Assembly: GCA_012523305.1 (NCBI GenBank)
Contig: JAAYIV010000058.1
Span: 1-35,379 of the forward strand
DNA: 35,379 nucleotides
From: Spirochaetales bacterium
GTDB lineage: Bacteria > Spirochaetota > Spirochaetia > Sphaerochaetales > Sphaerochaetaceae
Direction: 5' to 3'
Below, one piece after another: positions 29,353-31,770 of the stretch. The notes beneath the pieces are model-generated. The model ran no database searches and was not told the origin of the DNA. It was given only the letters and a program-made list of their open reading frames with translations. Within the stretch, counting starts at the first letter, position 1. Each line of letters begins with the position of its first letter. Both the position numbers and the translations under genes were made by a program.

Positions 29353-29760
29353 ATGGCAACAATCTTCACCAAAATCATCGACGGCACAATCCCTTCGATT
29401 CGGATATATGAAGATGAGTTATGCATCGTGATTCTTGATATAGCACCGGTGGCAAAAGGACACGCATTGGTAATTCCGAAACAGTGTTGGTCGTCAGTGG
29501 TTGAGTGTCCCGAAGAAGTCTTCGCTCACATCATGAAGATAGTCCAAAAAGTCGATAAACGCCTTCGGGAAGTTTTAGCTGCGGATGCTACGAATATTGT
29601 CATCAACGACGGTCCGGCAGCAGGACAGGAAGTTCCTCATCTCCATGTGCATGTAATCCCTCGTTATGTTAAAGACGGACTAAAACTCCAGATGCCCAAA
29701 ACTTCTTATGGCCAGGGAGAGATCGAAGTGGTCGGGGAAAGTCTTAATCTGTCGAGATAG
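29353..29760 (+). CDS. HIT (histidine triad) family protein, Hint-like
   Basis: A 135-residue HIT-superfamily nucleotide hydrolase or transferase. The histidine triad HLHVHVIPR is at 96-104, and the N-terminal FTKIIDGTIPSIRIYED and KGHALVIPK are standard for the bacterial branch. Members usually hydrolyse adenosine phosphoramidates or dinucleoside polyphosphates. AAGGAGGG precedes the ATG. The next gene has its own promoter, so this may be a single-gene unit. Confidence 0.92.
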   Translation: MATIFTKIIDGTIPSIRIYEDELCIVILDIAPVAKGHALVIPKQCWSSVVECPEEVFAHIMKIVQKVDKRLREVLAADATNIVINDGPAAGQEVPHLHVHVIPRYVKDGLKLQMPKTSYGQGEIEVVGESLNLSR

Positions 29761-29790: not shown

Positions 29791-29819
29791 TTGCTCGAAG
29801 GCATTCGCATTGATACACT
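29791..29819 (+). promoter_or_regulatory. Promoter of the zinc-ribbon gene, predicted leaderless
   Basis: TTGCTC (29791-29796) and TACACT (29814-29819) have a 17-base spacer. The ATG at 29827 starts eight bases after the last -10 base and has no ribosome binding site. Confidence 0.5.
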
Positions 29820-29826
29820 ATCGTCT

Positions 29827-30111
29827 ATGGGAAGTTGTCATTTTTGTGGAACAAAAGTTCCTACAGGATTGGTAATCGGTAATGCTACTCTTTGTTCATT
29901 TTGCGGTAGGCCGTTGAAGGTATGCCTGAATTGTCGCTTCTATGATAAAAATGCCTATCACGAATGTCGCGAAGAAATAGACGAACCGGTCATCTATAAG
30001 GATTTGGCAAATTTTTGTGATTTTTTCGTTTTAAACGAAGGATCTTCTGAAGCAAGCGTAAAATCACAAGAGGAAGCCCGCTCAAAATTTTTATCTCTCT
30101 TTAATGACTGA
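29827..30111 (+). CDS. Small cysteine-rich zinc-ribbon-like protein
   Basis: A 94-residue conserved-looking protein with cysteines C4-xx-C7, C23-xx-C26, C33-xx-C36, C47 and C64. The first two pairs could form one zinc ribbon and the rest a second site. The stretch CLNCRFYDKNAYHECRE followed by KDLANFCDFF resembles an uncharacterised bacterial family I have seen in other genomes, but I know no function. The ATG at 29827 is preferred; the longer frame begins with TTG at 29791, inside the -35 box. The stop at 30111 is 17 bases before bcp, so it is probably transcribed with bcp and the lipoprotein gene. Confidence 0.65.
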   Translation: MGSCHFCGTKVPTGLVIGNATLCSFCGRPLKVCLNCRFYDKNAYHECREEIDEPVIYKDLANFCDFFVLNEGSSEASVKSQEEARSKFLSLFND

Positions 30112-30128
30112 TACCAAGGGGGTATACA

Positions 30129-30596
30129 ATGTTAGCTCTCGGCTCATCACTTCCTGTGGGAACGGTACATGATGATTATGGAAATACGGTTCGGTTAACA
30201 GATTTTCTCGGTTCCTACATCGTGTTATATGTTTATCCAAGAGACAATACTCCTGGTTGCACTGCCGAAGCTTGTTCATTCCGCGACCAATCAAAAGACA
30301 TAGTCGCCACAGGAGCTACGATCTTGGGTATTAGTCCCGATACTGCTCAATCACATAAAAAATTCAAAGACAAATTTGAACTGAATTTCACACTTCTTGC
30401 GGACCCGGACCGCGTGATCATTGAACAACTAGGTGCATGGGGCGAGAAAACTAGTTATGGAAAGACCTCTATGGGAGTACTTCGAAGTACATTTGTATTT
30501 GATAAAAAAGGTACGCTAATTAAAGTTTGGCCGAAAGTATCTCCAGCTACCCATGGAGAAGAAATAGCCGATTATCTAAGGGAGTTGAAAGCCTGA
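30129..30596 (+). CDS. bcp: Thioredoxin-dependent thiol peroxidase Bcp (PrxQ)
   Basis: The 155-residue peroxiredoxin reduces hydroperoxides. The peroxidatic cysteine C44 and resolving cysteine C49 are in TPGCTAEACSF, the Bcp/PrxQ spacing. Fold landmarks include VLYVYPRDNTPG, GATILGISPDT and LRSTFVFDKKG. GGGGG lies about eight bases upstream of the ATG. It is the second peroxiredoxin of the window besides Tpx. Its TGA stop overlaps the start of the lipoprotein gene by one base. Confidence 0.94.
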   Translation: MLALGSSLPVGTVHDDYGNTVRLTDFLGSYIVLYVYPRDNTPGCTAEACSFRDQSKDIVATGATILGISPDTAQSHKKFKDKFELNFTLLADPDRVIIEQLGAWGEKTSYGKTSMGVLRSTFVFDKKGTLIKVWPKVSPATHGEEIADYLRELKA

Positions 30597-31735
30597 TGCG
30601 AATTCGTAGGATTGGAATAGGTCTTTTATGTAGTATCTTCATTGTGTTTGGGTATTCTTGTAAAACTTATAGTTACCCTGAAGCCCGTCTTATTATCCCC
30701 TCCACACGGTCTATACCTGAGACGCCTCCGATTTCAACCTATGGTCCTCAAAAAGAGGTGGAAATCGCCGAAACAATTATTACTCCCGCATCGGTACAGC
30801 CTGTAGAGGTAACAACAGCTGAAGATTCTCAGCGAGTAGTATACGAGGTTATCGTAGAAGAACCACGTCTGAGCCTCCCTGAAGAACCGATGGCAGTAAA
30901 ACTATCAGGTACGGCCCCTACTCAAACATTGCCGAAGTTGTTCGGAACAATCGATCCCCCGATGTATTTGAAAACAGATATACACCAAGTGAAGGCCCTT
31001 TTGATCAGGTTGCCTCCGATCGATTCTGCATTGCTTGATACAATCGTACAGCAAGTTGAACCTTATATCGACCAATGCTCGGCGGATATCGTGGTAATAT
31101 TCGGCGCTACAAAAGAATTGGAAGATCTGATTATCGCAAAAGGAGTGCAGGGTGTCGCGTATGCTAATGGCACGCTGGCCCTTACCTGTTTACCCATAAA
31201 GGAAATAAATAACAACAGTCTTTTGCTTGAGTTAGTGCCTGAGAAGACACTGGCTATTGCCCTTGCAAATCTTGATGATCAACATTCGATTATTAGTGCG
31301 CTGAAACAGCGGGATGTTGAACTGGAACAATGGGAAGATGAGGTGAAAGCCACTTCTGATGACCGATTGCATCAACTGGAAGGTATCATCGGTGAAACCA
31401 AAGATGTACCCGCCCTTTTATTTGCATCTTTAGGCGAACCGTCACATCTTGATTGGACAGGTGCGGATAAAGAAGTACCCTATCGCTCTGATTACAGCTG
31501 GCCATTGAGTACGCGTATCGAAACGCTTGGATTTGACGATAGCTATCGGATTACCCATTACAGCGTGCACAGCGATCCCGGAACGACAGTAGAATTGATA
31601 CTCGATGATCTTACCTTAAACGAGCGGGTTGATTATCTTTATACACGTGATATCATCCCTGTCTCGACTGAAGTAATACAACTTGAAGATTATAGCGAAC
31701 GTAAGGCTGTGTTCGGGACATTCTTGATTCCGTAA
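30596..31735 (+). CDS. Lipoprotein with catalytically degenerate EEP phosphatase-like domain
   Basis: A 379-residue protein with a relaxed lipoprotein signal (hydrophobic core then FGYSC, C22), a proline-rich linker to about residue 115, and a C-terminal domain resembling the endonuclease/exonuclease/phosphatase (EEP) fold. EPSHLDW at 281-287, WPLSTRIETLGFDDSYR and NERVDYLYTRD match EEP proteins closely. Catalytic motifs are lost: GDFN is ASLG (277-280), SDH is SER (367-369), and the N-terminal glutamate motif is not found. It is probably a non-enzymatic envelope protein. ATG 30596 overlaps the bcp stop, with AGGGAG about ten bases upstream. The EEP assignment is my pattern reading, not a search result. 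Confidence 0.7.
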   Translation: MRIRRIGIGLLCSIFIVFGYSCKTYSYPEARLIIPSTRSIPETPPISTYGPQKEVEIAETIITPASVQPVEVTTAEDSQRVVYEVIVEEPRLSLPEEPMAVKLSGTAPTQTLPKLFGTIDPPMYLKTDIHQVKALLIRLPPIDSALLDTIVQQVEPYIDQCSADIVVIFGATKELEDLIIAKGVQGVAYANGTLALTCLPIKEINNNSLLLELVPEKTLAIALANLDDQHSIISALKQRDVELEQWEDEVKATSDDRLHQLEGIIGETKDVPALLFASLGEPSHLDWTGADKEVPYRSDYSWPLSTRIETLGFDDSYRITHYSVHSDPGTTVELILDDLTLNERVDYLYTRDIIPVSTEVIQLEDYSERKAVFGTFLIP

Positions 31736-31740
31736 GCAGC

Positions 31741-31770
31741 AGAGGCTGGTGCCGATAGACAACAGCCTCT
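31741..31770. terminator. Hairpin between convergent genes
   Basis: A perfect 8-bp inverted repeat AGAGGCTG / CAGCCTCT with a 14-base loop sits between the lipoprotein stop and the pheT stop. T runs are poor on both sides, so it may act as a weak bidirectional terminator. Confidence 0.45.

Follow-up and report, generated by a model that had tools for sequence, protein, structure and literature searches.

A putative lipid-anchored EEP-fold pseudoenzyme encoded beside HinT in Sphaerochaetaceae

Introduction

Besides the protein family described here, the only bacterial EEP-fold pseudoenzyme that we have encountered is Crc, the catabolite repression control protein of Pseudomonas. According to the available part of its description, Crc is a member of the EEP/AP endonuclease family in which catalysis has been lost, with Ser in place of Asp210 and Tyr150 in place of Asn212, the tyrosine occupying the place of the scissile phosphate (PMC3662782), and the accessible portion of another paper has it working together with Hfq on mRNA (PMC6422490). 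With reference to HinT, the available parts of two reports on Mycoplasma hominis place this protein and the P60/P80 membrane complex in one operon and describe the binding of HinT to P80 (PMC539234, PMC1173108). Among the open-access titles listed for pseudoenzymes and lipoproteins of the EEP kind or of spirochaetes, those on Sphaerochaeta lipoproteins included, nothing to the point was found.

In this study, a lipoprotein gene and its relatives were investigated, starting from a stretch of 35,379 nucleotides of spirochaete DNA, which is called the window throughout. The reading that we favour, with a probability of roughly 0.55, is that the gene encodes a lipid-anchored pseudoenzyme in a gene row with HinT: a domain of the EEP phosphatase/nuclease fold would have lost its catalytic residues before the compared members diverged and would have been retained for binding or as a scaffold, without catalysis, being fixed to the cell envelope through a conserved anchor peptide and a tether whose length varies.

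Results

The gene and its protein

The features of the locus are collected in Table 1. The window protein carries the lipobox GYSC/KTY, from which it is predicted to be exported and lipidated and, on the same basis, to be an envelope protein. The lipoprotein anchor and the proline-rich linker named in the preliminary description were both seen, the linker being rich in proline and acidic residues, and the landmarks EPSHLDW (281-287), WPLS..E..GFDDSYR (302-318) and ERVDYLY (343-349) are likewise present in the sequence. The start of the lipoprotein gene sits within the Bcp stop codon (TGATG, 30594-30598), which makes translational coupling to Bcp plausible, and its frame stops 42 bases short of the end of the convergent pheT gene; the inverted repeat found there was not reported by a scan for consensus terminators. 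In four other loci (L022, L024, L033 and L131), the tether between anchor and domain expands into long, coiled-coil-like stretches rich in Glu, Gln and Ala, reaching about 435 residues at most (L131).

Table 1. Features of the pseudo-EEP lipoprotein locus in the window and, in the last row, the anchor-only forms in other genomes
Feature	Position	Strand	Remarks
HIT/HinT gene	29353..29760	+	PF01230, E 5.5e-30; conserved upstream partner (synteny)
Zinc-ribbon gene	29791..30111	+	Start codon uncertain; variable neighbour
Bcp/PrxQ peroxiredoxin gene	30129..30596	+	PF00578, E 7.4e-35; variable neighbour; stop shares one base with the lipoprotein start
Pseudo-EEP lipoprotein gene, P0001	30596..31735	+	379 aa; ORF and family alignment A1
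Lipoprotein signal peptide and lipobox (predicted)	30596..30661	+	Cys22 codon 30659-30661; lipobox Cys in 17/17 members of A1
Conserved anchor module, residues 22-48, C..Y........I.............T	30659..30739	+	The one part kept in seven genomes
Low-complexity Pro/Glu-rich linker, residues 49-110	30740..30925	+	Length highly variable among members; low pLDDT over 37-109
Pseudo-EEP domain (predicted), residues 111-379	30926..31732	+	hhalign, AlphaFold model, Foldseek, VIA
ASLG-EPSHLDW, residues 277-287	31424..31456	+	EPSHLDW kept; ASLG in place of GDFN
THYS, residues 320-323	31553..31564	+	Thr320 and His321 conserved among pseudo-EEPs, not in the four intact EEPs
ERVDYLY, residues 343-349	31622..31642	+	RID motif retained (Asp346)
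SERKAVFGTFLIP, C-terminal strand	31694..31732	+	SDH lost
Inverted repeat	31741..31770	.	Arms of 11 nt (91%); lies where the lipoprotein and pheT genes converge; may be a terminator
Short forms in genomes G029, G423, G363, G570, G593, G416, G564	L061 1501-1671; L062 1501-1668; L063 1459-1710 (-); L139 1823-1990; L141 1433-1561 (-); L076 from 1893; L145 1171-1317		Coordinates within each locus

Homology to intact EEP proteins and the predicted fold

Searches with the window protein by itself were uninformative, as Pfam and NCBIfam gave no significant match, phmmer against PDB sequences gave no match, and a scan of the genome contigs with P0001 alone confirmed no relative. The family profile A1, made of 17 members, gave a single weak ribosomal match against PDB sequences (E 0.033), which was judged to be chance and rejected, and Crc was absent from the matches of that search. 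Against genomes, the same profile reached intact EEPs in another spirochaete family (E 4.5e-9), namely secreted proteins of genome G357 that read GDFN(E/S)PSHLD, GF.DS(F/Y)R, RIDF(I/V)Y and (S/T)DH. Four of these intact secreted EEPs made up alignment A4, to which A1 aligned by hhalign with a probability of 99.0 (E 6.2e-18, 203 columns), and in the reverse search the A4 profile matched the window gene at E 2.5e-13. These reciprocal profile matches, together with the hhalign result, indicate sequence homology to EEP proteins beyond chance. PF03372 matched all four intact EEPs (4/4) and, at E <= 1, none of the A1 members (0/17).

Weak matches to the A4 profile were also noticed in genomes G438 and G518 (L142 and L143; E 1.8e-6 and 3.1e-6, respectively). 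In G357, the locus L064 (491-2468, minus strand) holds a tandem pair of intact secreted EEP genes with GDFNEPSHLDW. The window's genome itself encodes a second lipoprotein of EEP type (L019, 1450-2502, minus strand), which retains GGDWN and SDHHPV and lies above the PF03372 cut-off; as it aligned poorly, it was excluded from the counts of intact EEPs.

An AlphaFold model was built from the window protein and 15 named relatives, all of which are spirochaetes, several labelled Sphaerochaeta or Sphaerochaetaceae. It has a mean pLDDT of 67.9 and a pTM of 0.64, with the lowest values over the linker (37-109). Compared with the PDB by Foldseek, the model matched EEP structures with a probability of 1.00, the best being mouse Tdp2 (E 2.0e-9), and two Crc entries stood beside other EEPs among the first 50 matches. 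VIA-align, which is a re-scoring of Foldseek's own hits, gave for model residues 125-379 a Z of 20.3 against human neutral sphingomyelinase (rmsd 2.8, 223 residues aligned) and a Z of 19.2 against a Bacteroides EEP protein. The lipoprotein domain, as predicted in this model, is thus of the four-layered alpha/beta EEP fold, and the earlier proposal that an enzyme fold of this kind was recycled, which a lack of structural matches would have spoken against, is borne out by the predicted structure.

Distribution

Of 61 near genomes, 17 contain a relative. The window's own family accounts for 37 of the 61 and for every one of these 17, with none in the other 24. Searched through that family, profile A1 matched 102 of 139 genomes, 59 of 75 high-quality genomes and 14 of 22 genera, some of the 102 matches being short or partial. 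A phylum-wide profile search matched 31 of 392 genomes; 29 of these belong to the family, and the other two are G346, with a weak match in the N-terminal region, and G357, with its intact EEPs. The existence of seven genomes without the domain, together with other genomes of the family without the gene, indicates that the domain is not essential to the group.

Loss of the catalytic residues and maintenance of the domain

The catalytic positions of EEP proteins are in part those generally ascribed to the fold and in part those given in the available part of the Crc paper (PMC3662782). The residues were counted in 54 distinct members, covering part of the 102 matching genomes, and set against the four intact EEPs. 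These 54 are what remained of 68 representatives that differ in their last 150 residues once the 4 intact EEPs, 7 short proteins (one of them, L140, truncated at the end of a contig) and 3 fragments had been set aside; of the fragments, L069 and L132 are one gene and L088 is truncated at a contig end.

In the window protein, ASLG (277-280) takes the place of GDFN and SER (367-369) that of SDH, exactly as had been reported for it. Across the 54 members, the position of the GDFN aspartate (Ser278) is always Ser (54/54), and that of the GDFN asparagine is Phe (14), Tyr (14), Ser (12), Gly (6), Ala (4), Asp (2), Trp (1) or Gln (1) and never Asn (0/54). The histidine of SDH is likewise never found, the position being Arg in 37, a gap in 16 and Gln in 1, and the VHL histidine is kept in 1/54. 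At the first catalytic asparagine, Pro predominates (46), with Thr in 3, Asn in 2, His in 2 and Arg in 1. The catalytic glutamate of the intact EEPs was paired by hhalign with Gly170, which is Gly in 54/54, whereas the MAFFT alignment has a gap at this column, so that the pairing of Glu with Gly170 rests on hhalign. A missing glutamate motif had been described earlier, and neither alignment shows a glutamate there. The aspartate of RID (Asp346) remains Asp in 52/54, with Glu in the other two.

With 0/54 distinct members having GDFN or SDH at these places, the loss claimed for one protein extends through all the members read, which speaks against the refuting case of orthologs with intact motifs and a sequencing error in the window. 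The best explanation of these sequences is that the catalytic residues would have been lost, in all 54 members read, before those members diverged. Selection was examined by the Nei-Gojobori method over the last 255 residues, and dN/dS lay between 0.073 and 0.204 in the 24 close pairs listed of 46 found, these pairs not being independent of each other; such values indicate purifying selection and a maintained domain, not decay or error. A sequencing error or a decaying pseudogene is therefore hardly credible as an account of the gene. The eroded-looking lipoproteins of two genomes, G021 (230 aa, EPSHLDW core missing) and G608 (altered EPSHLDW region), do suit decay, but for the family as a whole it is contradicted by losses common to 54 distinct members and by the dN/dS values.

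Several polar residues are conserved among the pseudo-EEPs and not in the four intact EEPs, namely Arg297 (52/54), Thr320 (50/54), His321 (52/54) and Asp327 (46/54), and Asp286, Asp315, Glu343 and Arg344 are also kept in the family. Since Asp346 and many polar residues are still conserved, another activity is possible, and these newly conserved and retained residues could have built a new catalytic activity at the reshaped EEP site. We regard this as unlikely, given that the hhalign and MAFFT alignments show no EEP-type Glu/Asp pair for metal binding in the 54 members; moreover, we know of no precedent for a new activity at such a reshaped EEP site. The fixed replacements (Ser278 and Gly170, 54/54 each), taken with the newly conserved residues, lend support to a maintained pseudoenzyme.

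Gene neighbourhood and the HinT partner

The HIT/HinT gene, which is the true start of the row, had been overlooked in the preliminary description. Each distinct protein was given one row, and since L069 and L132 were entered separately, the 64 rows stand for 63 genes. In 55 rows, HIT lies upstream and on the strand of the lipoprotein gene; 6 rows were without data, and in 3 rows HIT was inverted. The inverted rows come from two genomes, G021 and G608 (L132, L133), in which the order of zinc ribbon, Bcp and lipoprotein is unchanged. The zinc-ribbon and Bcp genes are present in the closer relatives of the window and missing from many others, and where they are missing, the lipoprotein gene often begins right at the end of HIT or overlaps it. 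Bcp or the zinc ribbon as the main partner was considered and rejected, both being missing from many lipoprotein-bearing loci. HinT is the steady, conserved partner of the lipoprotein gene, and Bcp and the zinc ribbon are variable.

A functional link of the lipoprotein to HinT may lie behind this gene order. An alternative, to which we give an even chance, is operon inertia, whereby the position would be historical and HinT would have no part in the function of the lipoprotein. It fits with HIT being present in all 20 genomes of the family that had at first been counted as having no lipoprotein gene (in three of these, G021, G030 and G416, an eroded, truncated or short form came to light later) and with the inversion of HIT in two genomes; besides, HinT is expected in the cytoplasm and the lipoprotein outside. 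The steadiness of HIT upstream while zinc ribbon and Bcp vary counts against inertia, as does the binding of HinT to the membrane protein P80 within one operon in Mycoplasma hominis, as given in the available parts of the reports (PMC539234, PMC1173108).

As judged by eye, a zinc-ribbon gene follows HIT in 10 of the same 20 genomes (L068, L070, L071, L072, L075, L077, L079, L081, L084 and L087), and the HIT-zinc-ribbon pair may have its own link.

Short forms with the anchor and without the domain

In seven genomes, corresponding to the six short proteins other than L140 and to G564, a lipoprotein of 42-83 aa directly follows HIT and consists of the anchor module only (Table 1). For six of the short forms, the translated downstream DNA was searched for leftovers of the domain, and there were none (best E 1.3). 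A HIT tree (56 rows, 133 columns) requires 4 changes for the short form, a number that falls to 2 when well-supported branches alone are counted. G029, G423 and G570 group together within a supported clade that also has full-length members, and there loss fits better than an ancestral short form. In 20 genomes searched with the anchor-module profile, the matches outside the lipoprotein locus were all weak and fell mostly on the signal peptide; the strongest (E 2e-4) is to another lipoprotein of the window's own genome, which by eye resembles a hydrolase.

These short forms raise a possibility to which we attach rather low weight, that the anchor peptide does the work, as a small HinT-coupled envelope lipoprotein, and that the dead EEP domain is a spacer or cargo dropped more than once. 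Anchor-only proteins right after HIT, the lack of a downstream remnant in the six short forms examined and the repeated changes on the tree all agree with it. Nevertheless, purifying selection on the EEP domain is clear and most members retain it, and the short genes, with pN/pS of about 0.39-0.50 in three pairs and hence weak constraint, may themselves be disappearing.

Discussion

The pseudo-EEP lipoprotein is a new, family-wide case of a known phenomenon; what it adds is the HinT gene as a neighbour and an anchor that, more than once, is kept without the domain. As the catalytic residues are gone in every relative compared while selection keeps the domain, the favoured pseudoenzyme probably binds rather than cuts. 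Its binding surface would be the former pocket or its rim, formed by Ser278, Gly170, residue 280, Arg297, Thr320-His321 and Asp346, and plausible ligands are a phosphate- or sugar-bearing component of the envelope or a partner protein. The replacements of Crc type, with Ser in 54/54 and an aromatic residue in 29/54 (Tyr 14, Phe 14, Trp 1), suggest that the pocket may be plugged as in Crc.

A more elaborate proposal, which we consider speculative and quite improbable, joins these elements into a HinT-coupled envelope device, in which the anchor would be a functional lipopeptide standing alone and the dead EEP domain, with its catalytic site plugged as in Crc, would act as a detachable sensor or adaptor, binding either a phosphorylated ligand in the envelope or a partner protein and reporting the state of the envelope in Sphaerochaeta-type spirochaetes.

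If the pseudoenzyme reading is true, the lipoprotein family would be a second bacterial case of an EEP pseudoenzyme after Crc, distributed over a bacterial family and, by prediction, positioned across the membrane from Crc. Because the replacements are of the Crc kind (Asp to Ser, Asn to aromatic), this family could test how a phosphatase fold turns into a binding domain, and the anchor-only genomes would serve as natural deletion mutants of the EEP domain. Caution is also called for in annotation, as the EPSHLDW and RID landmarks alone are insufficient for naming genes endonuclease/phosphatase.

Compared with known systems, the pseudo-EEPs have the EPSHLD, GF.DS(F/Y)R and RID landmarks in common with the intact secreted EEPs of PF03372 (e.g. 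L064-L066), which, however, retain GDFN, the glutamate and (S/T)DH and pass PF03372, whereas the pseudo-EEP lipoproteins do not. Crc, as far as its available description goes, resembles the lipoprotein family in its dead EEP fold with Asp replaced by Ser and Asn by an aromatic residue; it retains the histidine of the catalytic site, which the lipoprotein family has lost, and the lipobox of the pseudo-EEP speaks against a Crc-like role with Hfq on cytoplasmic mRNA. The hitABL loci of Mollicutes, in the parts of the reports available, combine HinT in an operon with a lipoprotein-bearing membrane complex, and the likeness to the present locus is that of a membrane or lipoprotein gene beside HinT. 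Their gene order differs from that of the pseudo-EEP locus, and the binding of HinT belongs to them, whereas the pseudo-EEP partnership is one of gene order.
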